From assembly GCF_009708005.2 (NCBI RefSeq), contig NZ_CP052757.1, positions 1,984,001-2,048,000 on the forward strand: a stretch of DNA of 64,000 bases. Reading direction: 5' to 3'. A model generated the notes under the pieces. That model made no database searches. It was not told where the DNA came from and saw only the letters and a program-made list of their open reading frames with translations. Below are positions 8,618 through 29,995 of this stretch, piece after piece. The first letter of the stretch is position 1. Each line of letters begins with the position of its first letter. The DNA is from Cellulosimicrobium protaetiae (GTDB lineage: Bacteria > Actinomycetota > Actinomycetes > Actinomycetales > Cellulomonadaceae). The translations under genes were made by a program, and so were the position numbers.

Positions 8618-8692
8618 CGCGCGAAGTAGAGCCTCCGGTCGCGAGGTAGAACCCCGTGTGTTCTACCTCGCGACCGGAGGCTCTATCTCGCG
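8618..8692. repeat. 3'-end GAGGTAGA repeat pair forming a long hairpin
   Basis: Two sense copies of the repeat (cores AAGTAGAG and GAGGTAGAA) are followed by inverted copies, giving a perfect 25-bp stem (8627-8651 with 8661-8685) around a 9-nt loop. Mostly paired flanks extend it on both sides. It starts 5 bp after the glgP stop and probably acts as its terminator. Other members of this repeat family lie at 9789-9861, 11157-11238, 13079-13131, 29178-29280, 29659-29700 and 29975-29995. Confidence 0.85.
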
Positions 8693-8792
8693 GGACGCGG
8701 CCGGTGACGAGACTGGCGCATACCGCTAGCGGTTTTCCACAGGCCCCTGCCCAGCCCTGGCTGTGGCCGGCGTGCTCGGACAGTCTGTGCCC

Positions 8793-9797
8793 ATGAGCAC
8801 GGACGAGCACGAGGTCGAGCAGGCGCGTCGGACGGTGAGCCGTCCCCGGGACGCGCGACGTACGCCAGGGCGTCACGACGACTCGCGCGCCTCCGCGCCG
8901 TTGCCGTCGGTGGTCCGGTTCTCGACGGAGCGGCGCGCGGAGATCGTGGCAGGAGTCCGCCGCGGCACGCTCGTTCGGGTGCGTCAGGGCGTCTACGCGG
9001 CCCCGCCGGACCCGGCGGTCTCGCCGGCACAGCGTCGGCGCGAGGCCGTCGTCGCGCGCGCCGTGGCGCTCTCGGGACGGTTGACGACGGACTACTGGTT
9101 CAGCCACTCGACCGCCGCCGTCCTGCACGGCCTGTGGACCTGGCGGCTCGCGGACGAGGTCCACGTGACGCAGCTCGGGAACCCGTCCGTGCGCCGGACC
9201 GACCCGGGGCTCCGCAGGCACTGGACGTCGCTGCCCGAGAGCGACCGTGGCGAGCTCGACGCCCTCCCGGTCACCTCGTTAGAGCGCACGATCGTCGACT
9301 GCGCGCGCTCTCTCAGCCCGGTGGCGGGCATCGTGGTCGCGGACTCGGGGCTCCGCGCAGGCGCTGACGTCCGTCGGGTCGAGGCGGCCCTGGCGGCGGC
9401 CGCCGGTGGACGTGGCGTGCGGCGTGCGCGTCAAGTGCTCGCCGAGGCAGATGCGCGCTCGGAGTCGCCGGGCGAGAGCCTGGTCCGCTGGTTGGTGGTC
9501 GACGCCGGCCTCCCGCGCCCCGAGCCGAACCTCGCGGTGACCACATGGCGAGGCTCGTACCGGTTGGACCTCGCGTGGACGACGCACCGCGTCGCGGTGG
9601 AGTTCGACGGAGCGGTCAAGTACTCCGGCGGCGAGTACGGCGATCCGCGGGGACGGCTGCTCGCGGAGAAGGCTCGGCACGACGCGCTGGTGGAGGCCGG
9701 TTGGCTCGTCCTGCGGGTGACGTGGAACGACCTCGCCGAACCTGACGTGCTTCTCCGTCGCATCCGGGCAGCGCTCGCGCGACGCTCCGCGAGATAG
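8793..9797 (+). CDS. AbiEi-like N-terminus with C-terminal DUF559/Vsr-type nuclease fold
   Basis: A 334-residue protein of a type often found as scattered orphans in actinobacteria. Residues 1-40 are poorly conserved. Residues 40-180 resemble the type IV antitoxin AbiEi region: a short winged-helix-like part with RRGTLVRVRQGVYAAPP, then VTSLERTIVDCAR. Residues 235-330 resemble DUF559/very-short-patch-repair nucleases, with D259 in YRLDLAW, E270-F-D272 in VAVEFDG, and the ARHDALVEAGW helix. An active PD-(D/E)xK-like site is therefore plausible but unproven. ATG at 8793 is used because CAGTCT at 8781-8786 lies 6 nt upstream, as for a leaderless start. No AbiEii toxin gene is adjacent. Its stop codon TAG lies inside the downstream repeat. 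Confidence 0.75.
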   Translation: MSTDEHEVEQARRTVSRPRDARRTPGRHDDSRASAPLPSVVRFSTERRAEIVAGVRRGTLVRVRQGVYAAPPDPAVSPAQRRREAVVARAVALSGRLTTDYWFSHSTAAVLHGLWTWRLADEVHVTQLGNPSVRRTDPGLRRHWTSLPESDRGELDALPVTSLERTIVDCARSLSPVAGIVVADSGLRAGADVRRVEAALAAAAGGRGVRRARQVLAEADARSESPGESLVRWLVVDAGLPRPEPNLAVTTWRGSYRLDLAWTTHRVAVEFDGAVKYSGGEYGDPRGRLLAEKARHDALVEAGWLVLRVTWNDLAEPDVLLRRIRAALARRSAR

Positions 9798-9861
9798 AGG
9801 CTCCCGTCGCGACGTAGAGCTCCGCGCGCTCTACCTCGCGACCGGAGGCTCTACCTCGCGG
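9789..9861. repeat. GAGGTAGA repeats between convergent stop codons
   Basis: Two plus-sense copies (AGATAGAGGCTCCCGTCGCG, then ACGTAGAGC) face two minus-sense copies (CTACCTCGCGACCGGAGGCT type), giving an imperfect stem of about 26 bp with a 7-nt loop. The TAG of the plus gene (9795-9797) and the TAG of the minus gene (9833-9831) both lie within repeat cores. It looks like a bidirectional terminator built from the repeat. Confidence 0.85.
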
Positions 9862-11087
9862 CTGTCCAGGAGGGTGAGGTAGCGGGAGCGGGTGCGGACG
9901 ACGTCGGCGAGCTGGGTCTCGATGCCGTCGACGAACTCCTCGCGGTAGACGGCATCGACCTGGACGGAGATCGCGTAGTACAGGCCGGTGAAGGTCGCGA
10001 TCGCGACCGAGACGCGCAGGAGGGTCTGCGTCACCACCAGGTCGGCCCCGCCGACCCCGCCACCGCCGGCGAGCGACACCGTCTGGCGCCACGTGCCGCC
10101 GTCGACGTCCCAGAGCGCCATGACCTCGGGTGTGACGGTGAGCGTCCCGAGCGCCATGAAGAACACGCCCATGCCGAGGCTCACGACGAGGACCTGGAGG
10201 AGCTGGCTGCTCGCGATCATCGTCGCGAGGTTCGCCGTCTGGCCCCGGCTGAAGCGCGTCGCGCGCTCGTGACCGGGCAGCCGTGCGGCCGTCTCGGCGA
10301 GCGCCTCGCGCGCCTCGGCGGGGGAGCGCAGGCCGACGAACAGCACGACGAGGAGGGCGAAGAACGCGCCGAGCACGAGGTCCGCGACGCCGTGCGTGCG
10401 GTCGAACACCTGCCACACCTCGGCGTTGTAGAACAGGACGAGCGAGAACACGAGGAGCAGCGGGAGCAGCCGGACGAGCCGCAGGAGCGCGGCCCCGAGC
10501 TCGTCGGTGACGCGCGCCAGACCCCACCACAGCGACGACAGCACGCCGTACCCGACGACGACGCGCACCACCGCGAGCAGGACGAGGTTGCCGACGACGG
10601 TGAGCAGCGCGTCGCCCCACTGGCCGCCGAACACGAGCGGCAGGAGCGCCGGGACGAGCACGAAGAACGCGAGCTCGGGGACGCCGACCGACTGGGGGAG
10701 GGTCGACCACGGCCGCGCGCGCAGCACGTTGAGCCCCGCGTACGCCCCTGCGACGATCGCGGCGCCCCCGAGGAGCGCGAGCGCGTTCGCCCAGGCGGGC
10801 CAGCCGGACCGGACCGCCCCGGTGAGCTCGGCGAGCAGCACGACGAGCAGGAACGGCGCGGATCGGCCGAACACGTCACGGTCGAGCGAGTGGCCCTCGA
10901 CGAGGAGGGGCAGCCCGTTGCGGCGGAAGACGCGCTCGCACCCGGCGATGTCGGGCAGTGCGGGGTCCGGCTCCGGGCCGGGCTGCTCGACGACGCCCGG
11001 ACCGGCCGGCCCGTCGGGCTCGACCGGTCCCGTGCCCGAGGTGGGGCCGGACGGCCCGGGTCGGGACGCGTCGTCGTGCGCGCTCAT
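9831..11087 (-). CDS. Multi-pass membrane protein, function unknown
   Basis: A 418-residue integral membrane protein with no family I can name. About 55 acidic/proline-rich residues precede 8 to 9 predicted membrane helices spread from about residue 70 to 380, among them FLLVVLLAELTGAV, LAFFVLVPALLPLVF and a long LLPLLLVFSLVLF helix. A cytosolic-looking loop near residues 235-275 is rich in Ala/Glu/Arg. ATG at 11087 is preferred because TAGGGT lies 8 nt upstream. The last nine residues (REVEPPVAR) are encoded by the GAGGTAGA repeat, so the natural C-terminus may have been replaced by repeat sequence. Nothing nearby suggests a function. Confidence 0.7.
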   Translation of the reverse strand: MSAHDDASRPGPSGPTSGTGPVEPDGPAGPGVVEQPGPEPDPALPDIAGCERVFRRNGLPLLVEGHSLDRDVFGRSAPFLLVVLLAELTGAVRSGWPAWANALALLGGAAIVAGAYAGLNVLRARPWSTLPQSVGVPELAFFVLVPALLPLVFGGQWGDALLTVVGNLVLLAVVRVVVGYGVLSSLWWGLARVTDELGAALLRLVRLLPLLLVFSLVLFYNAEVWQVFDRTHGVADLVLGAFFALLVVLFVGLRSPAEAREALAETAARLPGHERATRFSRGQTANLATMIASSQLLQVLVVSLGMGVFFMALGTLTVTPEVMALWDVDGGTWRQTVSLAGGGGVGGADLVVTQTLLRVSVAIATFTGLYYAISVQVDAVYREEFVDGIETQLADVVRTRSRYLTLLDSREVEPPVAR

Positions 11088-11140
11088 GCTCGGTGACCCT
11101 ACCGGCCGAGGTGCCACGCCCGACGGACCCTGACGGCCGG

Positions 11141-11238
11141 TTCTCCGAGACCAAGGTTCTACCCGCGCGACCAGGCTTCTGTCTCACGCGACCAAGGTTC
11201 AACCTCGCGCGACCAGGGCTTGCTCGGCGGGCCAGGGG
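11141..11238. repeat. Degenerate GAGGTAGA-type tandem repeats
   Basis: Four to five imperfect units of 20-21 bp (GGTTCTACCCGCGCGACCAG type on the plus strand) run tandemly, with TTCT/TTCA cores at 11141, 11157, 11177 and 11198. Read on the minus strand they are in the sense direction, 3' of the flavoprotein gene that ends at 11261, as in the other copies. They also lie upstream of the membrane-protein gene that starts at 11087. Confidence 0.75.
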
Positions 11239-11260
11239 GTCTCCTTCGTGCGGCCGGGGC

Positions 11261-13015
11261 TCAGGCGAGCTCCGCAGCGAGGGCGCGGCCCGCCACGCGG
11301 CCCGAGTAGAGGCAGCCGCCGAGGAACGTGCCCTCCAGCGCGCGGTGGCCGTGCACGCCGCCGCCGCCGAACCCGGCGGCCTCGCCCGCGGCCCAGAGGC
11401 CCGGCAGCACGGATCCGTCCGCGCGCAGCACGCGCGCGGACGTGTCGGTCCAGAGCCCGCCGAGCGTCTTGCGCGTGAGCACCGAGAGGCGGACGGCGAG
11501 CAGCGGGCCGTCCTTGGGCGTCGTGATCGGCCGCGGCGGCGACACCCGGATGAGCCGGTCGACACGGTAGCGCCGTGCCATCGCGGTCGCGACGACCTGG
11601 GGGTCCTTGCCGAGGCCGGTGCGGACCTGCTCGTCGCGCAGGTGGATCAGCCGGGCGAGGGCGGCGCCGTCCACGTGGCCGCGCGAGCCCGGCGTCGAGT
11701 CGACGAGCGCGTTCATCCCCGCGGCGAGCTCCTCGGGCGTGTCGGCCCAGACGAACTCGGGCGACTGCTCCGCGAACCGCGCGACGGGGCCGACGGCGCG
11801 CGGCAGGACGCGCTGGGCGAGCAGCCTGACGTCCTTGCCGGTGAGGTCGGGGTTCTGCTCCGAGCCGGACAGCGCGAACTCGGACTCCATGATCGCCTTG
11901 TTGAGCACGAACCAGGAGTGGTCGTCGCCGCGCTCGGCGACGTGCTGCAGCGCGCCGAGCGCGTCGAACCCGGGGAATAGGGGCGCGGGCAGCCGGTTGC
12001 CGTCGGCGTCGAGCCACAGCGAGCTCGGGCCGGGCAGGATGCGGATGCCGTGGTCGGTCCAGACGGGGGAGTGGTTCGCGATGCCCTCGGGGTAGTGCCA
12101 CATGCGGTCCTCGTGCACGAGCGCGGCGCCCGCGTCGGCGGCGACGCCGATCATGAGCCCGTCGGTCGAGTCGGGGACGCCGGAGAGCATGCGCGCGGGC
12201 AGCCGGCCCGCCGTCTGGGGCCACCGCGAGCGCACGAGCTCGTGGTTCGCGCCGATCCCGCCCGACGTCACGACGACGGCGCTCGCCGCGATCTCGACCT
12301 CGCCGACGACCTCGCGCGACGACGGTGCGCCGCGCTCGACGTCCGACGGCGCGAGGACCTCCGCGCGCACGCCCGTCACCGCGCCGTCGGTCACGACGAG
12401 CGACGTGACGCGGTGGCGGAACCGCAGGTCGAGCAGCCCGGCGGCGCGGGCGTCGAGCGCGGCGCGCACGAACGGCTCGAGGATCGCGGGACCGGTGCCC
12501 CAGGTGACGTGGAAGCGCGGGACGGAGTTGCCGTGCCCTCCCGCGGCCGTCCCGTCGGCCCCCGAGGTCACCGGGTACCCGCCGCGCTCGGCCCACTGCA
12601 CGAGCGGGAACCACCGCACGCCCTTGTCGTGCAGCCAGCCGCGCATCTCGCCCGCGGCGAAGTCGACGAAGCCGCGCGCCCAGGCGTACCCGTGGCGGTC
12701 GGGGCCCTCACCGCGGTCGGCGCCGGGCGCGAACCGCGCGGACCCGAGCCAGTCGTCGAACGCGAGCTCGGCGGAGTCGGTGACGCCCATGCGCCGCTGC
12801 TCGGGCGAGCCGACGAGGAACAGGCCGCCGAACGACCACCACGCCTGCCCGCCGAGGCTCGCGGCGGGCTCCTGGTCCAGCAGGACGACGCGCCGCCCGG
12901 CCGCGGTGAGCTCGGTCGCCGCGACGAGCCCGGCGAGGCCGGCCCCCACGACGACGACCTCGGGGTTCTCGATCGTTGGGGAGCTGACGGAGGAGTCGAC
13001 CGCGCTGTCACTCAT
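11261..13015 (-). CDS. FAD-binding dehydrogenase (3-ketosteroid dehydrogenase-like family)
   Basis: A 584-residue flavoprotein of the FAD_binding_2 group. The dinucleotide-binding motif VVVVGAGLAGLVAATEL starts near residue 20, with the acidic VLLDQE about 15 residues later. The C-terminal GLWAAGEAAGFGGGGVHGHRALEGT is typical of the family that contains KstD and related FAD-binding dehydrogenases; the GG-rich end closes over the flavin pyrophosphate. The electron acceptor and substrate are unknown. No steroid genes are nearby, so a steroid role should not be assumed. ATG at 13015 is chosen because TACTCT lies 6 nt upstream. etfB-etfA are 2.6 kb away, but a functional link is not shown. Confidence 0.82.
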   Translation of the reverse strand: MSDSAVDSSVSSPTIENPEVVVVGAGLAGLVAATELTAAGRRVVLLDQEPAASLGGQAWWSFGGLFLVGSPEQRRMGVTDSAELAFDDWLGSARFAPGADRGEGPDRHGYAWARGFVDFAAGEMRGWLHDKGVRWFPLVQWAERGGYPVTSGADGTAAGGHGNSVPRFHVTWGTGPAILEPFVRAALDARAAGLLDLRFRHRVTSLVVTDGAVTGVRAEVLAPSDVERGAPSSREVVGEVEIAASAVVVTSGGIGANHELVRSRWPQTAGRLPARMLSGVPDSTDGLMIGVAADAGAALVHEDRMWHYPEGIANHSPVWTDHGIRILPGPSSLWLDADGNRLPAPLFPGFDALGALQHVAERGDDHSWFVLNKAIMESEFALSGSEQNPDLTGKDVRLLAQRVLPRAVGPVARFAEQSPEFVWADTPEELAAGMNALVDSTPGSRGHVDGAALARLIHLRDEQVRTGLGKDPQVVATAMARRYRVDRLIRVSPPRPITTPKDGPLLAVRLSVLTRKTLGGLWTDTSARVLRADGSVLPGLWAAGEAAGFGGGGVHGHRALEGTFLGGCLYSGRVAGRALAAELA

Positions 13016-13078
13016 GCGGGAAGAGTAGAGCACGTGTCCAGCCACCGGCAGGCCCGGGTAGTCGTGCGCGACCACGCC

Positions 13079-13131
13079 TCTACCTCGTGCCACCACGCCT
13101 CTACCTCGTGCGACCGAGCCTCTACCTCGGC
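13079..13131. repeat. Three 21-bp GAGGTAGA repeats at the glgX stop
   Basis: CTA cores lie at 13080, 13101 and 13122, exactly 21 bp apart. Read on the minus strand each gives GAGGTAG in the same frame. The first is the glgX stop codon and the other two are in-frame backup stops. The unit on the plus strand is CTCTACCTCGTGCGACCGAG. Confidence 0.85.
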
Positions 13132-15500
13132 GGGGTGGAGACGTAGACGCGCAGGCTCAGGGCCTCGAGCGCGACGACGTCTCCCGCGCGGGCGGTGCCG
13201 TCACCGTTCGCACGGTCCCGGTCCTCGGGGTGCTCCCAGTCCGAGTCCCACGCGAGGTCCCAGCGCTCGGCGTCCGCGTCCGAGGCGGCGCGCACGCCCG
13301 GCAGCGTGACGTCGACCGGGTCGAGCCCGCCCGCGAGCACCATGAGCACGTCGGCGTCGCCGGGCTCCGGGGCGGTGCGCAGCATCTGCAGCGTCCGGAC
13401 GGCGGGGTCGTGCCAGGCGGAGTGGTCGAGGAGCTCGCCGTCGGCGTCGAACCACACGAGGTCGGGCACGCCCACGTCGCTCCCCGGTCCCCGTGCGCCG
13501 GCACCCCCGCCCGAGGAGTCGCTGGGCCGCGGGCGGCCGGTGTAGAACGTGTCGGGGCGCAGCGCGGGGTGCTCGCGCCGCAGGGCGAGCAGGTACCGCG
13601 CCGTCGCGAGCAGGTCCTTGCGCCACGGCGAGAGGTCCCACGACACCCAGGACGTCTCGTCGTCCTGCACGTAGGCGTTGTTGTTGCCGCGCTGCGTCCG
13701 CCCCATCTCGTCGCCCGCGGTGAGCATGGGGGTGCCGGCGGCGAGGACGAGGGTCGCGAGGAGGTTGCGGATCGACCGGCGGCGCAGGGGCGCGATCTCC
13801 ACTCCGATCCCGAGCGCGTCGATTCCCGCGCCCGGCCCCCCGCCCGCCCGCGCGTCGGGTGCCGCGACCGGGCCCTCGAGACCGTGGTTCCAGGAACGGT
13901 TGTCGTCCGTCCCGTCGCGGTTGTCCTCGCCGTTCGCGAAGTTGTGCTTGTGGTCGTACGCGACGAGGTCGGCGAGCGTGAACCCGTCGTGCGCGGTCAC
14001 GTAGCTCACCGACGCGACGGGTCCGCGCAGCAGCGGCGGGTCGGAGTGGCCGAACAGGTCCGCCGACCCCGCGAGGCGGGTCGCGAGGTCGCGCACGCCG
14101 TGGCCGGGCCGCCCGTGGGACGCCTCGCGCGCGTCGGCGAGCCAGAACTGCCGCGCCGCGTCGCGGAACCGGTCGTTCCACTCGGCGAGCGGCGGCGGGA
14201 ACTGGCCGGTCCGCCAGCCGCCGGGTCCCACGTCCCACGGCTCCGCGACGAGCTTGAGCCCGCACAGCACCGGGTCCGTCTGCAGGGCGACGAGGAACGG
14301 GTGGTCGGGGTCGAACCCGGCCGCTCCGCGCCCGAGCGTGACCGCGAGGTCGAACCGGAACCCGTCGACCCCCACGACCTCCGCCCAGTACCGCAGTGAG
14401 TCCAGGGCGGCGCGCACCACGGCCGGGCGCCGGAAGTCGAGCGAGTTGCCCGTCCCGGTGACGTCGGCGAGCCGGGCGGGCGAGCCGCCGTCGTGCAGGT
14501 AGTAGCCGGCGTTGTCCAGCCCGCGCCACGACAGGTGGTACCCGTCGGCGCCGCCTTCGCACGTGTGGTTGTGCACGACGTCGAGCAGCACCTCGATCCC
14601 CGCCTCGTGCAGCAGGTGGACCATGCCGCGGACCTCGTCGAGGACGGCGCCCGGCCCGGCCTCCCGCGCCGCGCGCGTCGCGTACGCGGCGTGGGGCGCG
14701 AAGAACCCGAGCGTCGAGTAGCCCCAGTAGTTGGTGCGGCCGCTCGCGAGCAGGTGCGGCTCCGGCACGTTCGCGTGCACCGGCAGGAGCTCGACCGTCG
14801 TCACGCCGAGCGACCGCAGGTGCTCGATCGTCACCGGGTGCGCGACGCCCGCGTACGTGCCGCGCAGGTGCTCGGGCAGGGCCTCGAGCCGCTGCGTGAG
14901 GCCGCGCACGTGCGCCTCGTAGATCACGGTGTCGCGCCACGGGACGCGCGGCCGGGGCGCCAGGGTCCCGGTCGGCTCGGCGACGACGACCGCGTGCGGC
15001 ACGAACGGCAGCGAGTCGGTCGCGTCCGCCGGGCCGTACGGGTCGCTCCCGACCTGGCCGTGGACCGCCGGGTCGTCGACCAGCTCGCCCACGAGGCCGC
15101 GCGCGTACGGGTCGACGAGCAGCTTCGCGGGGTTGTGCCGCAGCCCGGCCGCGGGCTCCCACGGCCCGTGCGCGCGGAACCCGTAGCGCTGCCCCGGCCG
15201 GACGCCGGGGACGTGGGCGTGCCAGACGCCGTACGCCGGCCCGGCGAGCGGGACGCGGCGCTCGCGGTAGCGGGCCGGGTCGTGGGCGGGCAGCGACGCG
15301 TCGACCACGTCCACGAGGCACAGCTCGACGGCGGTCGCGTGCGACGCGAGGACGGCCACGTCCACGCCGTCGCCCGCGACGCGGACGCCGAGCGGCGGCA
15401 CGAGAGCGTGCCGGTCGACGGGCCCCGTCGGGAGCGGGAGCGCTGCCGGGACGGTGCCGGGGGTCGGTTCGGGGACGGCGGAGGGGCGGGGCACGTGCAC
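13122..15500 (-). CDS. glgX: Glycogen debranching enzyme (isoamylase type)
   Basis: Hydrolyses alpha-1,6 branch points of glycogen or limit dextrin, acting with GlgP. The 792-residue protein has an N-terminal CBM48-like domain (about 20-170) and a GH13_11 barrel with nucleophile D384 in GFRFDLAV, acid/base E420 in LVAEPWD, and SYVTAHDGFTLADLVAYD, which is typical of GlgX. It is longer than the usual 700 or so residues because of Gly/Pro-rich inserts near 565-580 and 675-685. GTG at 15500 is used: CACAAT lies 6 nt upstream, suggesting a leaderless message, and the ATG a few bases upstream is out of frame. The stop codon lies in the 3' repeat array. Confidence 0.9.
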   Translation of the reverse strand: MHVPRPSAVPEPTPGTVPAALPLPTGPVDRHALVPPLGVRVAGDGVDVAVLASHATAVELCLVDVVDASLPAHDPARYRERRVPLAGPAYGVWHAHVPGVRPGQRYGFRAHGPWEPAAGLRHNPAKLLVDPYARGLVGELVDDPAVHGQVGSDPYGPADATDSLPFVPHAVVVAEPTGTLAPRPRVPWRDTVIYEAHVRGLTQRLEALPEHLRGTYAGVAHPVTIEHLRSLGVTTVELLPVHANVPEPHLLASGRTNYWGYSTLGFFAPHAAYATRAAREAGPGAVLDEVRGMVHLLHEAGIEVLLDVVHNHTCEGGADGYHLSWRGLDNAGYYLHDGGSPARLADVTGTGNSLDFRRPAVVRAALDSLRYWAEVVGVDGFRFDLAVTLGRGAAGFDPDHPFLVALQTDPVLCGLKLVAEPWDVGPGGWRTGQFPPPLAEWNDRFRDAARQFWLADAREASHGRPGHGVRDLATRLAGSADLFGHSDPPLLRGPVASVSYVTAHDGFTLADLVAYDHKHNFANGEDNRDGTDDNRSWNHGLEGPVAAPDARAGGGPGAGIDALGIGVEIAPLRRRSIRNLLATLVLAAGTPMLTAGDEMGRTQRGNNNAYVQDDETSWVSWDLSPWRKDLLATARYLLALRREHPALRPDTFYTGRPRPSDSSGGGAGARGPGSDVGVPDLVWFDADGELLDHSAWHDPAVRTLQMLRTAPEPGDADVLMVLAGGLDPVDVTLPGVRAASDADAERWDLAWDSDWEHPEDRDRANGDGTARAGDVVALEALSLRVYVSTPPR

Positions 15501-15611
15501 CCGTCCATTGTGGCGGGTGTCACCGACCCCTCCCGCCGCCCGCCGGTAGGCTTCCCGGAGCGGGCCGGGAACCTCTCCGGCCGACCGCCCAGCGCACAGG
15601 GAGAGCAGCCG

Positions 15612-16427
15612 ATGCGGATCGTCGTCGCCGTGAAGTACGTCCCGGACATCCATGCGGACCGGGGCTTCGAGGGCGGGCGCGTCGTGCGCCGGGCCGACGA
15701 GGGGACGCTCAACGAGCTCGACGAGAACGCGGTCGAGGCCGCGCTGCGCCTCAAGGAGGCGCTGCCGGAGGCGGAGCGCGAGACCAGCGAGGTGATCGTC
15801 CTCACGGTGGCCGGCCCCGACGCCGACGGCGCGGTGCGTCGCTCGTACCAGCTCGGTGCGGACCGCGGCGTGCGCGTGAGCGACGACGCGATCGCGGGCT
15901 CCGACTACTTCGGCACAGCGCGCGTGCTCGCCGCCGCGGTGCGCCGCCTTGCGGACGAGGCCCCGGTGGACCTCGTCGTCACCGGCATGGCCGCGCTCGA
16001 CGGGCTCGGCTCGGTCGTCCCGGCGCTCCTGTCCGCCGAGCTCGACCTGCCGCAGCTCACGCTCGCCGGCAAGCTCGAGGTCGACGGCGAGCCGGGCGCG
16101 CGCACCGCGCGCGTCACGCGCGAGCTCGACGGCGTCGAGGAGGTCCTCGAGGCGCCGCTCCCCGCCGTGGTGTCCGTGACGGACCACGCGAACGACCCGC
16201 GCATGCCCAACTTCAAGCTCATCATGGCGGCGCGCACCCGGCCGGTGGAGGCGTGGAGCCTCGCCGACCTCGGCGTCGACCCGGCGCTCGTCGGGGAGAC
16301 CGGCGCACGCTCGCGCGTGACCGACGCGTCGCCCCGCCCGCCGCGCCCCGACGCCGAGATCGTCGTCGACAAGGGCGAGGGCGGGCGCGCCCTGGCCGAG
16401 TTCCTCATCCGCAACGACCTGGTCTGA
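15612..16427 (+). CDS. etfB: Electron transfer flavoprotein beta subunit
   Basis: The 271-residue small subunit of ETF, which binds AMP and carries electrons from acyl-CoA and other flavin dehydrogenases to the quinone pool through ETF-quinone oxidoreductase. It begins MRIVVAVKYVPD, has the conserved TLNELDENAVEAAL segment near residue 40 and the beta-signature-like GLGSVVPALLSAELDLPQ near 135, and ends with PNFKLIMAARTRPVE. A GGGAG sequence lies 8 nt before ATG, and a -10-like TAGGCT at 15547-15552 may be its promoter. etfA follows 13 bp downstream. No acyl-CoA dehydrogenase or ETF dehydrogenase gene is in the window. Confidence 0.93.
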   Translation: MRIVVAVKYVPDIHADRGFEGGRVVRRADEGTLNELDENAVEAALRLKEALPEAERETSEVIVLTVAGPDADGAVRRSYQLGADRGVRVSDDAIAGSDYFGTARVLAAAVRRLADEAPVDLVVTGMAALDGLGSVVPALLSAELDLPQLTLAGKLEVDGEPGARTARVTRELDGVEEVLEAPLPAVVSVTDHANDPRMPNFKLIMAARTRPVEAWSLADLGVDPALVGETGARSRVTDASPRPPRPDAEIVVDKGEGGRALAEFLIRNDLV

Positions 16428-16440
16428 GAGGCGTCCGCAC

Positions 16441-17448: not shown

Positions 17449-17455
17449 GGGCCCG

Positions 17456-17995: not shown

Positions 17996-18071
17996 TGGCG
18001 CCGCCCACCGGTGCGCGAGCACCGGTACGTCCGCACGCTCCCGCTCAGGTGGCGGACAGCCGGTGCCGAGA

Positions 18072-18126
18072 ATTCACCCGGCGTCCTCCGGGTGGTGGCC
18101 GGCCGGTCATCGACCGTTCCTAGCGT
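18072..18126 (+). promoter_or_regulatory. Candidate PHO box and -10 element of the phosphatase gene
   Basis: Four consecutive 11-nt units start at 18072, 18083, 18094 and 18105 (ATTCACCCGGC, GTCCTCCGGGT, GGTGGCCGGCC, GGTCATCGACC). By my count units 1 and 4 match the Streptomyces PhoP direct-repeat consensus (G, G/T, TCAYYYR, G/C) at 9 of 10 positions, and units 2 and 3 at 7 of 10. A -10-like TAGCGT follows at 18121-18126. Location before a PhoX-type phosphatase fits control by phosphate starvation. Confidence 0.5.
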
Positions 18127-18177
18127 CGGGCCGACTCCCCGGTGACGGGGAAGCCCCCCGACCTGTGGAGACGACCG

Positions 18178-20366: not shown

Positions 20367-20403
20367 TCGTCCGCTCCGCACCGCGCGGAGGCCCGTCGGA
20401 GCC

Positions 20404-21450: not shown

Positions 21451-21670
21451 CGAGATGCCACTTCCCCTGTCGGTGGCTGGACGGTCTCGTCCTCGGCACG
21501 TTTCCGTCCCGCGGCGACGTGTGGCGCGCGACGGCGGTCCTGCGACCGGGACGAGCGCCCGGCGACGGCCGGGCGCAGACCTCCCACAACCTAGCGCTTC
21601 TCGCCGGGAAGTCCAGCGCCGCCCACTCCTCGGACCGCGAGCGCCGTGACGGTTCGTAGACTGGGTGACC

Positions 21671-22933
21671 GTGACCCACCCTTCCGGCCCTGTCCCCGCG
21701 GCGGCCGCGTACCTCGACCACGCCGCGACCACGCCGTTGTCCGCGGCGGCGCGCGAGGCGTTCGTCGACGAGCTGTCGCGCACCGGCAACCCGTCGTCGC
21801 TGCACGCCGCGGGCCGCGCCGCCCGCCGCACGGTCGAGGAGGCGCGCGAGTCGATCGCCGCGTCGCTCGGCGCGCGCCCGAGCGAGGTCGTGCTCACCGC
21901 GGGGGGCACCGAGGCGGACAACCTCGCGATCAAGGGCCTGTTCTGGGGGCGGCGCACGACCGACCCCCGCCGGCGGCGCATCGTCGTCTCGGCCGTCGAG
22001 CACCACGCGGTGCTCGACCCCGCGTTCTGGATGGCGGAGCACGCGGGTGCGGAGATCGTCCTGCTGCCCGTCGACGGCGACGGCCGCGTGGACGTCGCGG
22101 CGCTGCGCGCGGAGATCGCGGAGCACGCGGACGAGATCGCGCTGATCTCGGTCATGTGGGCCAACAACGAGGTGGGCACGCTCCAGCCCGTGCAGGAGGT
22201 CGTGCAGCTCGCGCGCCCGCACGGCATCCCGGTGCACTCCGACGCGGTCCAGGCGGTCGGGCAGGTCCCCGTCGACTTCGCGGCGAGCGGCCTCGACGCG
22301 ATGACGGTGTCCGGGCACAAGCTCGGCGGCCCCGTCGGCGTCGGCGCGCTCGTCGCGCGCCGCGACGCCCCGCTCACCCCGGTGCTGCACGGCGGCGGCC
22401 AGGAGCGCGGGGTGCGCTCCGGGACGCTCGACGCGCCCGCGATCCGCGCGTTCGGCGTCGCCGTCGTCGAGGCCGTCGCACGACGCGAGGAGCGCGCCGC
22501 CCACCTGACGGCCCTGCGCGACGCGCTCGTCGCCGGCGTGCGCGAGCGGGTCCCGGACGCCGTCCTCAGCGGGCCGGAGCCGGGGCCCGGAGCCCACGCC
22601 GCGCGGCTGCCCGGCAACGCGCACTTCACGTTCCCCGGGGCCGAGGGCGACTCGCTGCTCTACCTGCTCGACTCCGCCGGGGTGCAGGCCTCGACCGGCT
22701 CGGCGTGCCAGGCCGGCGTGCCGCAGCCGTCGCACGTGCTGCTCGCGATGGGCGTGCCGGAGCAGGACGCGCGGGGAGCGCTGCGCTTCACGCTCGGGGC
22801 CACCTCCACGCCCGCCGACGTGGCGCGCCTGCTCGACGTCCTGCCGCCCACGGTCGAGCGCGCGCGGGCCGCCGGGCTCGCGTCCGGCCCGACCCGCACC
22901 GCCGTCCCGAGCCGCGCGGGAGGTGCCGCGTGA
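21671..22933 (+). CDS. iscS: Cysteine desulfurase
   Basis: PLP enzyme that removes sulfur from cysteine as a protein persulfide, here most likely supplying MnmA for tRNA thiolation and Fe-S assembly. Visible features in the 420-residue protein are [10 protein letters not shown] at the N-terminus, the PLP lysine K217 in SGHKLGG, and the persulfide-carrying C346 in [12 protein letters not shown] at 21671 is chosen because TAGACT (21657-21662) lies 8 nt upstream, fitting a leaderless start; an in-frame GTG at 21665 is an alternative. The stop overlaps the mnmA start (GTGA). This pair matches Rv3025c-Rv3024c of M. tuberculosis. Confidence 0.93.
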
Positions 22934-24144
22934 GGGTGCTCGCCGCCATGTCGGGCGGCGTCGACTCCGCGGTCGCCGCGGCGCTCGCGGTCGAGGCGGG
23001 GCACGAGGTCGTGGGCGTCCACATGGCGCTGTCGCGCAACCGGGACCAGTTCCGCACCGGCTCGCGCGGGTGCTGCTCGATCGAGGACGCGGGCGACGCG
23101 CGGCGCGCGGCCGACGTGCTCGGCATCCCGTACTACGTCTGGGACCTCTCGGAGCGGTTCGAGGACACGGTCGTCGCCGACTTCCTCGCGGAGTACGAGG
23201 CGGGCCGCACCCCCAACCCGTGCGTGCGCTGCAACGAGCACATCAAGTTCGAGGCCCTGCTCGACAAGGCGACCGCGCTCGGCTTCGACGCCGTCGCGAC
23301 CGGCCACTACGCGCGCGTCGTGACGCGCGAGGTGCCCGACGCGACCGTCCCGGGCGCGGTGCGGACGGTCCGCGAGCTGCACCGCTCGCCCAACACGGCG
23401 AAGGACCAGTCCTACGTGCTCGCGGTCATGGGGCCGGAGCGGCTGGCACGCGCGATCTTCCCCCTCGGTGACTACGCGTCGAAGGACGAGGTCCGGGCCG
23501 AGGCGGCACGGCGCGGGCTGTCGGTCTCCGCGAAGCCGGACTCGTACGACATCTGCTTCGTCGCCGACGGCGACACGCCGGGCTTCCTGCGCGACCGGCT
23601 CGGCGCTCGGCGCGGCGAGATCGTCGATGCCGAGGGGACGGTGCTCGGCGAGCACGACGGCGCGTACGCGTACACCGTCGGCCAGCGCAAGGGCCTGGGC
23701 ATCGACCGCCCCGCACCGGACGGCCGACCGCGGTACGTGCTCGACGTGCAGCCCGCGCGCAACCGCGTGGTCGTCGGGCCCGCCGAGCTGCTCAGCGTCG
23801 ACCGGGTCGAGGCGGGCGCGGCCGTCTGGTTCGAGGACGCGCGCCCGGCGGCGGGGGAGTGGACCGACGTCGAGGTGCAGGTCCGCGCGCACGGGACCCC
23901 GGTCCCGGCACGCGTCCGGGCGGTGTCCGGGGCGTCGTCGGACGGCACGTCGGACACCGGCGCGGAAGGCATGGAGGTCGCTCTCACGGGCACGCCGCTC
24001 CGGGGCGTCGCGGCCGGGCAGTCGCTCGTCGTGTACGACGGCGCGCGCGTGCTCGGCCAGGCCACGGTGGACCGGGCGTACCGCTCGGCCGCACGGGTGG
24101 GCGCGCTCCCGACCGCTCAGCCGACCGCGACGGGCGCGGGGTGA
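22930..24144 (+). CDS. mnmA: tRNA-specific 2-thiouridylase
   Basis: Adenylates and thiolates U34 of tRNA-Lys, -Glu and -Gln. The 404-residue protein starts [17 protein letters not shown] with the PP-loop SGGVDS at residues 8-13. Catalytic C98 is in NPCVRCNEH and the persulfide-forming C209 in [10 protein letters not shown]. The C-terminal domain has GQRKGLGI near residue 255 and a beta-barrel tail. GTG at 22930 overlaps the iscS stop by 4 bp, so sulfur donor and acceptor are translationally coupled. The 3' end overlaps the convergent SnoaL-like gene by 28 bp. Confidence 0.94.
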
Positions 24145-24545
24145 GCGAGCGCGCGTATGAGCGCGGACTCGTCGCGCACGCACCAGTGCTCGGCCTCCTG
24201 GCCCTCGGCGAACCGCAGCACGTGCATCTCACGCACCCGGAAGCGCCGACCGGTCGGCGCGACACCACGGAAGAACCCGGTGTGCCGCGCGCTGAGCTCG
24301 ACGTGCAGGGCGACGAGATCGCCCTCCGCGACCGCGTGCAGGACCTCGACGCTCTGGTCCTCGAACGCCTCGTCGTACCAGTGCATCGTCGCGAGCAGCG
24401 CCTCGGCGCCGCCCTCGCTGCCGGGCGACACGTCGTGGTTGCGGAACCCGGGCGCGAGCAGCGCCGCGAGCGCGTCGCGGTGGTTGCCGGGGATCGCCTG
24501 CGTGTGCACGGCGATCGCCGTGGCCTTGTTCTCGTGCGTGCCCAT
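24117..24545 (-). CDS. SnoaL-like / ester cyclase-like protein
   Basis: A 142-residue NTF2-fold protein of the SnoaL polyketide-cyclase-like group. It has [20 protein letters not shown] near residue 16 and the typical C-terminal [18 protein letters not shown] and [10 protein letters not shown] segment. Members range from true cyclases to general small-molecule binding proteins, so no reaction can be assigned. ATG at 24545 is chosen because GGAAGGG lies about 9 nt upstream. It overlaps the mnmA 3' end tail to tail and is divergent from the MetE-like gene. Confidence 0.75.
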
Positions 24546-24706
24546 GCCGGAGCCCTTCCGCCAGGCGGCCGCGCGGCCCCCGGACCCCGGCGGGGTCGCG
24601 GCACGGCTCGGTTTCCCAGTGTGCTCCTGGAGAGAGGTGGTCGGCACGTGGTTCGTGACGAGAGGGCGGTCGGCGCCCGGTGCGAAGGCTCCCGCGGGGG
24701 TGCGGC

Positions 24707-25756
24707 GTGACCGCGGTGAGCGGGCTCGGCCCGTGGCCCGGCGGCGAGGGCTCGGACGTGCTGGAGGCGCAGCTCACGGTGCTCGGCGACCTCGCCGAGG
24801 TCCCGTCCGGCGTGCGCGGCGTGCCGTTCCTCGTCCAGCTCCCGGGGCGAGGACCCGGCGCGGACGCGGTCGGACGGACCGCCGCGCTGCTGCCCGGGCT
24901 CCCCGTCGAGCTGGGGCCCCACGGGTGGAAGCTCGCGGACCACGGCGGCGCCGACCTGCGTCGTGCCGAGGCGTTCCTCCGCCAGGACGTCGAGGCGCTC
25001 GCGATCGCGGCGGCCGGGTGGTCCGGGCCGCTCGCCGTGACGGTCACCGGGCCCTGGACGCTCGCCGCGGACCTGTACCTCGCGCGCGGCGACCGCGTGC
25101 TGTCCGACCGGGGCGCGGTCCGCGAGGTCGGGCAGGCGCTCGCCGTCGCCGTGGGCGAGCACGTCGCCCAGGTGCGCCGGCAGGTCCCGGGGGCGGACGT
25201 CGTCGTGCAGCTCGACGAGCCGCTCCTCGCCCAGGTCGGGGCGGGCGTGCTCCCGTCGTTCTCCGGCTACTCGCGCCTGCGCGCGGTGCCCGGCCCGGAC
25301 CTCGTGGACGGGCTCCGGCCCGTGCTCGACGCCGTCCGCGCGGCGGGCGGGTCGAGCGTGGTCCACGTGGGTGCGGGCTGGGTGGGTGTGGCGCCCGTCG
25401 TGCTGGCGGGCGCAGACGCCGTCGGGCTCACGCTCGGGGCGTGGGACGAGCGGTTGTGGGAGACCGTCGCGCGGGCGCTCGAGCGCGGCGTGGGACTGTG
25501 GGCGGCGCTGCCGCCCGCGAAGGTGTCGCAGTGCGCCGGGCCTGCCCTGGGCGAGCTCGCCGACCTCGTGAGCGTTCCCTGGCGGCGGATCGGGCTCCCG
25601 CTCGCGGCGCTCGACGACGTCACGCTCCTGGGTGCCGCGCGCGGCGCCGGGGGAGGGCCGGGCGGCGGCGTCGCGGGCACCCCCGACGAGCACCGCGCGC
25701 TGCTCGCGAACCTCGGCCGCGTCGCCGACGTGCTGGCCGAGCGCGCGCACGCCTGA
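24707..25756 (+). CDS. MetE C-terminal-like protein (Rv3015c-type)
   Basis: A 349-residue protein resembling the C-terminal half of cobalamin-independent methionine synthase but much shorter than MetE (about 750). It has VQLDEPLLAQVGAG near residue 165, corresponding to the MetE Asp-Glu-Pro segment, and VVHVGAGW near 220 where MetE has a zinc ligand in a His-x-Cys motif. Here the motif reads His-Val-Gly, so a canonical zinc site and methionine synthase activity are doubtful. From memory, M. tuberculosis Rv3015c is of this type and lies between trmU and ligA, which supports orthology by position. GTG at 24707 is preferred. The true role is unknown. Confidence 0.75.
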   Translation: MTAVSGLGPWPGGEGSDVLEAQLTVLGDLAEVPSGVRGVPFLVQLPGRGPGADAVGRTAALLPGLPVELGPHGWKLADHGGADLRRAEAFLRQDVEALAIAAAGWSGPLAVTVTGPWTLAADLYLARGDRVLSDRGAVREVGQALAVAVGEHVAQVRRQVPGADVVVQLDEPLLAQVGAGVLPSFSGYSRLRAVPGPDLVDGLRPVLDAVRAAGGSSVVHVGAGWVGVAPVVLAGADAVGLTLGAWDERLWETVARALERGVGLWAALPPAKVSQCAGPALGELADLVSVPWRRIGLPLAALDDVTLLGAARGAGGGPGGGVAGTPDEHRALLANLGRVADVLAERAHA

Positions 25757-25924
25757 ACGTCGCCCGGACACGCGCTCGACGCTTCCCGCGCGCGGCCCCG
25801 CATGCGTAGGCTTGACCCCGCGCGGCGGTCACGACGGCGACGTGCGGACGGCCGCGCCGCGGCTGCCCGGACGACGCGGGCACGACCCGGCGCCGTCCCC
25901 GTCCCCCCACCGCGAAGGACCCAC

Positions 25925-26698
25925 ATGCCCGCTCTGCGAGCCGTGCTGTTCGACCTCGACGGCGTCCTGACGCCGACGGCCGAGATCCACATGCGCGCCT
26001 GGGAACGGCTGTTCGCGCCCTGGTGCGCCGCGCACGGTCTCGCCCCGTACACCGCCGCGGACTACTTCGCGTCGATCGACGGCAAGCCGCGCTACGACGG
26101 TGTCGCGACGTTCCTCGCGTCGCGTGGCGTCGAGCTGCCGCGGGGCGAGGCGACCGACGCCCCGGGGGAGACGACCGTGGCGGCGCTCGGCAACCGCAAG
26201 GACGAGATCGTCAACCGGATGTTCGCCGAGGAGGGCATCGCGCCCTACCCCGGGTCGGTGCGCTTCCTCGACGCCGTGACCGCCGCGGGTGCCGGGGTCG
26301 CCGTCGTGTCGTCGTCGCGCAACACTCCCGCGGTGCTCGCGGCGGCGGGGCTCGCGGACCGGTTCGAGGTCGTCGTCGACGGGAACGTCGCGGCCCGCGA
26401 CCACATCGCGGGCAAGCCCGCGCCCGACACCTACCTGCGGGCCGCTGAGCTCCTCGGCGTCCCCGCCGCGGAGGCGGTCGTGGTGGAGGACGCGCTCTCG
26501 GGCGTGCAGGCGGGTGCCGCGGGGGACTTCGGGCTCGTCCTGGGCGTCGACCGCGGCGTGGGTGCCGACGCGCTGCGCGCGCACGGGGCCGACGTCGTCG
26601 TGGCCGACCTGGGCGAGCTCGACGCGACGGTCCTGGACCGCCCGCGTGCCGCCGCGACCCCTGCCCAGCCCGTACGACCCGCCGAGGAGAGCGCGTGA
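25925..26698 (+). CDS. Beta-phosphoglucomutase (HAD family)
   Basis: Converts beta-glucose 1-phosphate to glucose 6-phosphate. The 257-residue HAD protein has nucleophile D10 and acid/base D12 in VLFDLDGVLTPT, the SSSRN motif II region near residue 128, lysine in IAGKPAPDTYL and the acidic VVVEDALSGVQAG. GAAGGA lies 5 nt before ATG. Its stop overlaps the start of the GH65 phosphorylase, whose beta-glucose 1-phosphate product it would consume. The pair corresponds to Rv3400-Rv3401 in M. tuberculosis by order and family. A -10-like TAGGCT about 115 bp upstream may be the promoter. Confidence 0.88.
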   Translation: MPALRAVLFDLDGVLTPTAEIHMRAWERLFAPWCAAHGLAPYTAADYFASIDGKPRYDGVATFLASRGVELPRGEATDAPGETTVAALGNRKDEIVNRMFAEEGIAPYPGSVRFLDAVTAAGAGVAVVSSSRNTPAVLAAAGLADRFEVVVDGNVAARDHIAGKPAPDTYLRAAELLGVPAAEAVVVEDALSGVQAGAAGDFGLVLGVDRGVGADALRAHGADVVVADLGELDATVLDRPRAAATPAQPVRPAEESA

Positions 26699-29172
26699 TC
26701 CGCAAGACCGCCGACGAGCGCAGCACCGTGGACCGGCTGCGCTTCCCGGCCGAGCCCTGGCGGCTCGTCGAGTCCCAGTTCTCCGCGGAGGACCTCGGGG
26801 TGACCGAGACCCTCTTCGCCGTCGCCAACGGCTACCTCGGGATGCGCGGCAACGTCGAGGAGGGGCGCGAGTCCCACACGCACGGCACGTTCGTCAACGG
26901 GTTCCACGAGACCTGGCCGATCCGGCACGCCGAGGAGGCGTACGGGTTCGCGAAGGTCGGGCAGACGATCGTCAACGTCCCCGACGCCAAGGTGATCCGG
27001 CTCTACGTCGACGACGAGCCGCTGCTCCTGCCCGTCGCCGACCTCATCGACTACGAGCGCTCGCTCGACCTGCGCGACGGCGTCCTGCGGCGCGAGCTGC
27101 TGTGGCGCACCCCGTCGGGCAAGCGCGTGCAGATCCGCTCGCAGCGCATGGTGTCGTTCGTCGAGCGGCACCTCGCGATCATGACGTTCGAGGTCACGCT
27201 GCTCGACGCCGCCGCGCCCGTCGCGATCTCGTCGCAGGTCCTCAACCGCCAGGACGGCCAGGACGAGTACCACGTGCGGGCGGCGTCGCTCGGCGAGGGG
27301 TTCGACCCGCGCAAGACGAACCAGTTCTCCGGCCGGGTGCTGCAGCCCCAGACCCAGTGGGGCGACGACGAGCGGGTCGTGCTCTCCTACCGATGCACCA
27401 ACTCCGGCATGACGCTCGCGGTCGCGGCCGACGACCTGCTCGAGACCGAGAACGAGTGGGACGTGCGCACGCAGGTCGACGAGGACCTCGCCAAGCACGT
27501 GTTCCGCGTGCACGCGGAACCGGGCCGGCCGATCCGGCTCACGAAGGTCGTCGCGTACCACACGTCGCGCGGGGTTCCGTCGCGCGAGCTCGTCGACCGC
27601 TGCCGCCGCACGCTCGACCGCGTGCACGACGGCGGCATCGACGCGCAGCTCGCGCTGCAGCGTGGGTGGCTCGACGACTTCTGGGCGCGCTCCGACGTCG
27701 AGATCCCGGGCCAGCCCGGGGTGCAGCAGGCCGTGCGCTGGAACCTGTTCCAGCTCGCGCAGGCCACGGCGCGGGCCGAGGGCAACGGGGTCCCCGCGAA
27801 GGGCCTCACCGGGTCCGGGTACAGCGGGCACTACTTCTGGGACACCGAGATCTACGTCCTGCCGTTCCTCACGTACACGAGCCCCCGGTACGCGCGCAAC
27901 GCGCTGCGCTTCCGCTACCAGATGCTCGACGCCGCCCGGCGGCGTGCGGCGGAGCTGTCGCAGAAGGGTGCGCTCTTCCCCTGGCGCACGATCAACGGCG
28001 AGGAGGCCTCGGCCTACTACGCGGCGGGCACCGCGCAGTACCACATCGACGCCGACGTGAGCTACGCGCTCGTGCAGTACGTGCGCGCGACGAACGACGT
28101 GGACTTCCTGCGCCGCGAGGGCGTCGACGTCCTCGTCGAGACCGCGCGCATGTGGGAGGACCTCGGGTTCTGGCGCGCCAACGGCGACGACAACTTCCAC
28201 ATCCACGGCGTCACGGGGCCCGACGAGTACACGACCGTCGTCAACGACAACCTCTTCACCAACGTCATGGCGCGGTTCAACCTGCGCGCCGCGGCGTACG
28301 TCGTGGACCGGATGAAGGCCGACCACCCCGAGGACTACGCGCTCCTCGTCGACCGGCTCGGGCTCGGTGCGTACGAGGCGGCGGAGTGGGTCCGTGCCGC
28401 CGACCACATGTCGATCCCCTACGCGGAGAGCATCGGGATCCACCCGCAGGACTCGCACTTCCTCGAGCGCGAGATCTGGGACCTCGCGCACACCCCCGCG
28501 GACAAGCGGCCCCTCCTGCTGCACTATCACCCGCTCGTCATCTACCGCTACCAGGTGCTCAAGCAGGCCGACGTCGTGCTCGCCCTGTTCCTCCAGGGCC
28601 AGCACTTCACGGCGGAGGAGAAGCTCGCCGACTTCGAGTACTACGACCCGCTGACCACGGGCGACTCGACGCTGTCCGGCGTCGTGCAGTCGATCGTCGC
28701 GGCCGAGGTCGGCTACCACGAGCTCGCGCTCGAGTACTTCGTCTCGTCGCTCTTCGTCGACCTCGCGAACCTCCACGCCAACGCGTCCGACGGCGTCCAC
28801 GTCGCCTCCGCGGGCGGGACGTGGTCCGCGCTGGCCTGCGGGTTCGGCGGCATGCGCGACTCGGACGGCGAGCTGTCGTTCGACCCGCGCCTGCCGCAGG
28901 AGTGGGAGTCGCTGACGTTCCGCGTCCAGTGGCACGGGTCGCGGCTGCGCGTCACCGTGCTGCCCGACGCGATCGAGCTCGACGCCGAGACCGGCGAGGG
29001 CGCGCAGGTCACCGTGCGGGGTGAGCAGGTCAAGGTCGTCCCGGGCGAGGTCGCGCGCATCGCGCTCGACGGCCAGGGCCCGGTGAAGCCCGGCCGCCCG
29101 AGCCTGCGCGCGCTCTCCGGCAACCGCCGCGACGACGGCACCCTCATCACCGCGACGGTCCCGCACTCCTGA
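26695..29172 (+). CDS. GH65 family inverting disaccharide phosphorylase
   Basis: An 825-residue member of glycoside hydrolase family 65, which phosphorolyses alpha-glucosides such as maltose, trehalose, kojibiose or nigerose to beta-glucose 1-phosphate and glucose. Visible are the N-terminal domain with NGYLGMRGN near 45, the barrel with FWDTEIYVLPFL near 380, the general-acid E511 in TGPDEYTTVV, and the paired lysine in LKQADVVLALFLQ near 625. Substrate choice in GH65 depends on loops I cannot score, so maltose and trehalose are both open. Translational coupling (GTGA) with beta-phosphoglucomutase supports a phosphorylase rather than a hydrolase. Confidence 0.85.
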   Translation: MIRKTADERSTVDRLRFPAEPWRLVESQFSAEDLGVTETLFAVANGYLGMRGNVEEGRESHTHGTFVNGFHETWPIRHAEEAYGFAKVGQTIVNVPDAKVIRLYVDDEPLLLPVADLIDYERSLDLRDGVLRRELLWRTPSGKRVQIRSQRMVSFVERHLAIMTFEVTLLDAAAPVAISSQVLNRQDGQDEYHVRAASLGEGFDPRKTNQFSGRVLQPQTQWGDDERVVLSYRCTNSGMTLAVAADDLLETENEWDVRTQVDEDLAKHVFRVHAEPGRPIRLTKVVAYHTSRGVPSRELVDRCRRTLDRVHDGGIDAQLALQRGWLDDFWARSDVEIPGQPGVQQAVRWNLFQLAQATARAEGNGVPAKGLTGSGYSGHYFWDTEIYVLPFLTYTSPRYARNALRFRYQMLDAARRRAAELSQKGALFPWRTINGEEASAYYAAGTAQYHIDADVSYALVQYVRATNDVDFLRREGVDVLVETARMWEDLGFWRANGDDNFHIHGVTGPDEYTTVVNDNLFTNVMARFNLRAAAYVVDRMKADHPEDYALLVDRLGLGAYEAAEWVRAADHMSIPYAESIGIHPQDSHFLEREIWDLAHTPADKRPLLLHYHPLVIYRYQVLKQADVVLALFLQGQHFTAEEKLADFEYYDPLTTGDSTLSGVVQSIVAAEVGYHELALEYFVSSLFVDLANLHANASDGVHVASAGGTWSALACGFGGMRDSDGELSFDPRLPQEWESLTFRVQWHGSRLRVTVLPDAIELDAETGEGAQVTVRGEQVKVVPGEVARIALDGQGPVKPGRPSLRALSGNRRDDGTLITATVPHS

Positions 29173-29177
29173 GCCCG

Positions 29178-29280
29178 AGCTCTACCTCGGCGGGCCCCCG
29201 ACCCCGCCGAGGTAGCACCGCAGTCCGCCGAAGTAGAACCCTGGTTGACCGAGATAGAACCGTGGGTGGCCGAGGTAGAA
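29178..29280 (+). repeat. Four 21-bp GAGGTAGA repeats after the GH65 gene
   Basis: An initial hairpin (CTACCTCGGCGGG at 29182-29194 with CCCGCCGAGGTAG at 29203-29215) starts 9 bp after the GH65 stop. TAG cores follow at 29213, 29234, 29255 and 29276, exactly 21 bp apart, in the sense direction of the GH65 gene. The first pair can act as a terminator. Confidence 0.85.
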
Positions 29281-29319
29281 CGCTGGTTCTTGTGCCCGAC
29301 GGCGTGTGGTTGCTTGGGT

Positions 29320-29419
29320 GGTCGGGGTGGGTGGTGGTGCCGCGTCTACCATCCGCCGCTCGTTCCTCGCGGCTCCCGCCAGGCCCGACCACGACGCGGC
29401 ACCACCACCCACCCCGACC
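29320..29419. repeat. 27-bp perfect inverted repeat
   Basis: Positions 29320-29346 (beginning GGTCGGGGTGGGTGGTGG) are the exact reverse complement of 29393-29419, with a 46-nt spacer. This is longer than a usual intrinsic terminator. It may be a folded RNA element, the ends of a tiny non-autonomous element, or a duplication made by recombination. No target-site duplication was evident. Confidence 0.75.
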
Positions 29420-29658
29420 GGCGTCGTCTCACCCTGGTCCTCGCTCGCGTCGGGCGACCGCCGCGGTGTCGGATTCGCCAGCGCCGCATCGCGCCGAGCA
29501 GGTGGTTCTGGCTGGTCCTGGGTGGTGGACGAGCCATGGTCACCTGTTCGGTCTGCCGGGATCGCCTGGTCGGCCAGGCGTGCCGACGTGCGAGAACCAG
29601 GCGCGCTGGCGACCCGCTCTCGGCGGTGTCTTGCTGCCTTCGGGCACGGTGACCAACG

Positions 29659-29700
29659 TTCTACCTCGGCCGACCAGGGTTCTACCTCGGCGCGCCCGGG
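29659..29700 (-). repeat. Two GAGGTAGA repeats, minus-sense
   Basis: TTCTACCTCGGC cores at 29659 and 29680 are 21 bp apart. On the minus strand they read GAGGTAGAAC. No intact minus-strand gene ends directly before them; the nearest upstream one ends at 30080, so a lost gene or local rearrangement is possible. Confidence 0.75.
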
Positions 29701-29769
29701 AGCACCCGCAGGGGGAGACGGCCGCCCAGGAGCGATGACCCGCCACGGGTCGAGGTCGAACACAGAACA

Positions 29770-29823
29770 CGGTGCGACGACGGACCACCGTGCGACGACG
29801 GACCACGGTGCGACGACGGACGA
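29770..29823. repeat. Triple 18-bp tandem repeat
   Basis: CGGTGCGACGACGGACCA is repeated three times without spacers, with one mismatch in copy 2 and one in copy 3. The period of 18 keeps any reading frame open across it, so it does not by itself argue for or against coding. Confidence 0.8.
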
Positions 29824-29974
29824 GCGGTGGGGGTGGGCTCGGATGCGAAGGGGCGTCAGAGCCGCGCTCCGAGAACCCACGCCCGAAAGACCGATGGTGA
29901 CGGCGCGGCAGCCCCGAGCACCGAAACCACCCCCACCGCGGACCCGACCCAGCGAGCCTGAGAGCCCGACCACG

Positions 29975-29995
29975 GTTCTACCTCGCGGAACCAGG
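29975..29995 (-). repeat. Single GAGGTAGA repeat unit
   Basis: GGTTCTACCTCGCGGAACCA on the plus strand; minus-sense, about 85 bp downstream of the prolyl oligopeptidase stop. It directly precedes a coding-like remnant on the plus strand, so it may mark a junction. Confidence 0.65.

Follow-up and report, generated by a model that had tools for sequence, protein, structure and literature searches.

Palindromic repeats at gene 3′ ends in Cellulosimicrobium and a nuclease-like gene bracketed by matching copies

Bacterial interspersed mosaic elements (BIME), BOX, mycobacterial interspersed repetitive units (MIRU), and uptake-sequence terminators lie at gene 3′ ends, form modular mosaics, and occur as inverted pairs, and MIRU overlap stop codons too; to our knowledge, none of them brackets a nuclease gene of matching dialect. 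A 21-bp repeat of the soil bacterium Cellulosimicrobium protaetiae, described here together with a nuclease-like gene from a 64-kb stretch of contig NZ_CP052757.1 (hereafter the window), resembles these families in 3′-end location, modular mosaics, and inverted pairs. Free-standing Vsr-like homing endonucleases such as I-Bth0305I differ from the nuclease studied here, which has palindromes or inverted arrays of its own that can also disperse alone and carries an N-terminal AbiEi-like region. The closest described systems are those of repetitive extragenic palindromes (REP) and REPtrons, in which dispersed palindromic repeats bracket an enzyme gene and the spelling of the repeats varies with the enzyme copy, as set out in PMC3733652. 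Some classes of bacterial palindromic repeats lack a known mobilizing enzyme, the CGTC class among them according to the same paper.

The system described here likewise comprises dispersed extragenic palindromes and, by flank similarity at 60/70 loci, copies of them on both sides of an enzyme gene, here that of the nuclease and not of a REP-associated tyrosine transposase (RAYT). It departs from REPtrons in its enzyme, an AbiEi/Vsr-like nuclease where REPtrons have an HUH tyrosine transposase, and in the long tandem arrays that occupy the arms. Our best reading is a system that resembles REPtrons but has an unrelated nuclease, the 21-bp repeats being its dispersed, tandemly expanded copies. 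Open-access PMC texts yielded no paper joining AbiEi with DUF559 or an interspersed repeat with Cellulosimicrobium; among the matches listed, none concerned by title DUF559/Vsr with palindromic repeats or 10-mers of the repeat, and a query for REP in Cellulomonas returned only unrelated papers.

Nuclease genes with matching flanks

The association of the nuclease with matching repeats is strong. Left and right flanks matched each other in 60/70 homologues examined in the family, scoring higher than the 99th percentile for 235 control genes, and the matched flanks were palindromes or inverted tandem arrays. Between the two palindromes of the window there is one gene only and no transposase gene; its neighbors are a phosphorylase gene and one for a protein without a Pfam match. 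This gene, called nuclease-like in the initial annotation, is likely the partner of the scattered repeats, a link not noticed there. The AbiEi-like region of its product matched the PADLOC AbiEi model (E = 2.2e-13), and the C-terminal domain matched only as a Vsr/DUF559-like fold: against the NCBIfam DUF559 model the protein scored 16.5 bits, below the cut-off of 218, Pfam gave no match at E ≤ 0.001, and a PDB search by sequence gave 0 matches. Plasmid and phage searches returned one distant match each. Conserved among the homologues are D280 and E291 (both 70/70), D293 (67/70), and K297 (69/70), which we take to be the active-site residues of a Vsr/DUF559-like nuclease. Homologues at E ≤ 1e-12 were found in 65 of 396 genomes of the phylum, and single genomes had as many as 5 scored matches; flanks matched at 17 of 27 usable loci (leaving out L413 and L427, short loci with overlapping flanks), some of these being low-complexity or possibly overlapping coding sequence.

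The palindromes form dialects that are specific to paralogues, and several dialects recur away from the gene in the same genome, at gene 3′ ends wherever the places were inspected. Spelling differs from locus to locus, with CGAG or CGAA within the first 14 bases in 34 of 60 palindromes, and palindrome similarity tracks protein identity (Mantel r = 0.31, p = 0.001). Paralogues within one genome carry unlike palindromes: 20 cross scores from 14 loci, two of which (L338 and L395) are among those whose flanks did not match, ranged from 12 to 23 versus a mean matched score of 43.8. The genome of the window itself has three nuclease homologues and three dialects, the third of which, TGAGTGCATGAAATAGTCGCG, is striking given that the genome has ~74% GC. 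When 15 dialects were compared by BLAST with 14 genomes, nine had at least two further genomic places besides the gene flanks among the matches listed, including at least 14 in G129, at least 10 for one dialect of G025, and at least 8, 7, and 6 in G056, G235, and G253, respectively; three solo copies, judged by eye, each lay within ~30 bp of a stop codon. Our sample of the window's own genome (sixty 20-kb stretches together with the window, ~26% of the genome, with our own gene calls) held six solo palindromes of the third dialect and none of its reversed control, and five of the six stood in convergent gaps. The TGA at either end of such a palindrome is the stop codon of the adjoining gene on both sides at L083 and on one side at L036 and L085, so that stop capture is not unique to the TAG dialect. 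Such pairs of repeat and nuclease recur in related bacteria, each nuclease having its own spelling of the repeat, which suggests selfish or mobile DNA of a kind not yet described.

The interval downstream of the glgP-like gene is occupied in G005, G009, G001, and others by nucleases ~50% identical to that of the window, representing replacement or deep divergence in place. At L238 in G013, the interval from the glgP-like gene to the membrane-protein gene retains the C-terminal part of the nuclease only, the remains of a gene that decayed in place.

Repeat units at gene ends and among relatives

The unit has the consensus SSCGAGGTAGAACCSTGGTCG, and its 17-mer core, CGAGGTAGAACCSTGGT, has 454 copies at ≤2 mismatches in the whole 4.78-Mb genome, versus 1 for the reversed pattern. 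In the window, a 13-mer searched at the same tolerance gave 23 matches versus 2.75 expected (maximum of 100 shuffles, 8), and the motif was present at every repeat site that the initial annotation had listed. Neighboring units are spaced by 21 bp in 107 of 111 pairs. The core CGAGGTAGAACC also contains the pentamer GAGGT, which is Shine-Dalgarno-like and overlaps the TAG stop.

Arrays occupied 29 of 1,026 gaps in our sample, from which 10 further arrays were dropped (seven within called genes and three outside any called gap). They were found in 15/187 convergent, 13/663 tandem, and 1/176 divergent gaps, and convergent gaps were enriched relative to the rest (Fisher p = 3e-5); the repeat clusters at gene 3′ ends. 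Where a gap held a pair of arrays, the pair faced inward in 15 of 15 cases, and the same orientation prevailed by 82 to 3 in a set of at least 120 genus loci selected for having a tandem pair of units. Lone arrays in tandem gaps were in the sense direction in 7/8 cases in our sample, one of them being the 8.6-kb site, which is actually a palindrome, and in 14/20 at the genus loci. The initial annotation had units always reading in the sense direction of the gene upstream. Inward pairing is solid and lone arrays are mostly sense; "always" was too strong, since the second arm of each pair in a tandem gap is antisense and an antisense unit, judged by eye, follows the GH65 stop near 29179. Any array in a convergent gap is sense to one of the genes, so this case is uninformative, and the rule arises mostly because inward pairs lie downstream of genes.

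The TAG of the unit serves as stop codon in the three window genes for which this had been claimed, namely those of the nuclease (9795–9797), the membrane protein (9831–9833, minus strand), and the alpha-amylase-domain protein (13122–13124, minus strand). At gene ends with an array no more than 150 bp away, it is the stop codon in 9 of 42 in our sample and 41 of 160 at the genus loci, and TAG accounts for 135 of 1,044 stops in the sample used for the stop-codon count. The notion of a stop cassette is true of these gene ends, about a fifth of those next to an array.

Copy number varies widely. Across 119 genomes scanned with the 17-mer, the 16 congeners ranged from 1 to 498 copies, genus g7 had 7, 57, and 33 in three genomes, one genome of genus g11 had 48, and the remaining 98 had 0 to 3. 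Amplification of the 12-bp core CGAGRTAGAACC within the family is patchy (178 copies in G248, 68 in G046, 56 in G026, 43 in G062, 35 in G224, and 26 in G241), with 0 to 3 copies of the reversed control per genome and many near relatives at background. Outside the genus, tandem periods were 16 (G248), 20 (G026 and G224), and 19 (G241), and array pairs were 58 inward versus 2 outward, as counted at a loose 11-mer threshold that gave 778 matches, 435 of them within genes, versus 242 for the reversed control. At five window sites, congeners had 0 to 6 units with position and arm order unchanged; the 13.1-kb site had 2 versus 4 units in a pair of genomes sharing 98.8% identity over 17.7 kb, and in seven congeners the gap at the 29-kb site measured just 37 to 181 bp, lacked paired arrays, and in several held another hairpin. 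This variation in unit number between genomes, along with the sequence common to the palindromes that bracket the nuclease, lends indirect support to the earlier suggestion of a mobile or recombining 3′-end element. Among 80 matches listed for named records of the genus loci, 77 bore the name Cellulosimicrobium and 3 the label Sphaerisporangium cinnabarinum; the arrays at L092, L109, and L162 (QAPD records) lie in an assembly labeled S. cinnabarinum ATCC 31213, which may be a mislabeled Cellulosimicrobium.

Mechanism and alternative explanations

The repeats are probably the dispersed, non-autonomous form of an element whose autonomous form is a palindrome, the AbiEi/Vsr-like nuclease gene, and a second palindrome (window 8618–9862). 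Mobility and cleavage, which we infer, would proceed as follows: the AbiEi-like region would bind its own dialect, the Vsr-like domain would nick or cut DNA, and repair, by homing or template switching, would copy the palindrome or the whole unit elsewhere. Copies would be tolerated or favored at gene 3′ ends, convergent gaps above all, where the inward arms may act as hairpins and at times provide the stop codon; later, in Cellulosimicrobium, the arms may have grown into tandem arrays of 21-bp units and taken up other hairpin modules. We give about even chances to a broader proposal, namely that these are selfish elements of a new class, present in several genera of the family and probably more widely in Actinomycetota. 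In such elements, the AbiEi-Vsr-like nuclease, itself free-standing, would recognize its own bracketing palindromes or inverted arrays and spread them to gene 3′ ends, at times immediately at stop codons, with or without its gene and in lineage-specific dialects; one genome could hold several independent systems, with no need of a classical transposase or recombinase. The results link each paralogue of a nuclease family that has no known job to a repeat dialect of its own, and they make the spread of repeats without a transposase directly testable. They also point to a possible function for AbiEi/DUF559-type genes, which are multi-copy in some actinobacterial genomes, and, for high-GC genomes, to a source of gene 3′ ends, stop codons, and hairpins that has gone unnoticed.

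Several observations weigh against a nuclease-driven element. No clean pair of empty and occupied sites with a target duplication was found, six of the 15 dialects had none or one further place among the matches listed, and the TGCGTCAGCGG dialect was not above control in our sample (112 versus 106 reversed). The flank test failed at 10/70 loci, the 70 loci were not randomly drawn, and a locus's own right flank ranked best among all 70 right flanks in just 33, because orthologues have flanks in common. The correlation between dialect and protein may be plain co-inheritance, and the N-terminal half of the nuclease model is poor. Genomes G003 and G014 carry a homologue, yet have 3 and 1 units, and G013 has 47 units with only a nuclease remnant at the glgP-like/membrane-protein locus.

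An unlikely alternative, still the foremost among those considered, is that the repeats are host 3′-end elements, i.e., bidirectional terminators or mRNA 3′-end hairpins spread by recombination and kept by selection, with the nuclease merely lying between two of them. The enrichment in convergent gaps, compensatory-looking changes between species in the 8.6-kb hairpin, and other hairpins that occupy this gap in species lacking the element all fit this explanation, which leaves the matched flanks of 60/70 homologues and the paralogue-specific dialects unaccounted for. It also sits poorly with the hairpins themselves: stems in tandem gaps had no excess of G·U over A·C mismatches (40 versus 50; 87 versus 68 in convergent gaps; neither significant), and hairpins after lone sense arrays (means −26.1, n = 21, and −27.8, n = 15) were no stronger than at 225 other gene ends (−31.2 kcal/mol). 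A terminator hairpin following the array as a rule was therefore rejected. Inverted unit pairs can form long hairpins, but the stems gave no RNA-level signature and hairpins after single arrays were no stronger; the terminator role first proposed is plausible. In a rather improbable operator model, the AbiEi-like protein would bind the flanking palindromes for self-regulation, the nuclease would serve defense, and the dispersed copies would be regulatory or self-marking. The AbiEi-like match agrees with this, as does the binding of promoter inverted repeats by AbiEi and Rv2827c described in PMC7319586, but self-regulation needs neither a palindrome behind the gene nor hundreds of copies at other 3′ ends.

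Neutral tandem repeats grown by slippage wherever tolerated are very improbable as an explanation. Unit number does differ between close genomes and few arrays lie within genes, but the spacers of adjacent units are barely more alike than those of random units (tail, 0.56 versus 0.49 in G248) whereas the unit core is 93–96% alike between adjacent units; the core is thus the conserved part, the arrays are not merely young slippage products, and slippage alone was rejected, the more so as it explains neither the inward pairs nor the nuclease flanks. A classical REP/RAYT system, which would share the palindromes, a GTAG within this core, the dispersed extragenic copies, and the repeat-bracketed gene, is scarcely credible: other dialects have no GTAG, and Y1_Tnp (PF01797) was found in 0/17 genomes in a search confined to the genus, with the control positive in 5/14 known genomes, so a RAYT origin was rejected. 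The nuclease and the repeats most likely make up one system that is REP-RAYT-like in its working but cannot be filed there, since the genus yielded no RAYT.

Window features and additional hairpin modules

Table 1. Repeat arrays, palindromes, and associated features of the window.
Feature	Position	Strand	Context
Compact palindrome with two units in each arm, 20-bp spacing	8618–8692	.	Left flank of nuclease gene; also behind phosphorylase (glgP-like) stop
Nuclease gene, AbiEi-like region and C-terminal Vsr/homing-endonuclease-like domain	8763–9797	+	TAG stop inside right palindrome
Compact palindrome, 20-bp spacing	9788–9862	.	Right flank of nuclease gene; contains TAG stops of both convergent genes
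3-unit array	11148–11209	-	Behind flavoprotein stop
3-unit array	13069–13131	-	First unit contains TAG stop of alpha-amylase-domain gene
4-unit array	29206–29289	+	Behind GH65 stop; left arm of composite element
Hairpin module A, 27-bp stem	29282–29440	+	
2-unit array, inverted	29650–29691	-	
Single unit, inverted	29967–29987	-	Right arm of composite element, peptidase side

A search of the window at Rfam gathering scores gave 0 matches. Composite elements contain three further hairpin modules between inward arrays, at 29282–29440 (module A), about 29480–29590, and about 29828–29960. The module A region, searched with the longer query 29282–29660, has 35 genomic places at E ≤ 1e-50, this copy counted. 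Module A has a conserved loop, and matches to it occur in 17/17 genus genomes searched, even where the 21-bp unit is rare.

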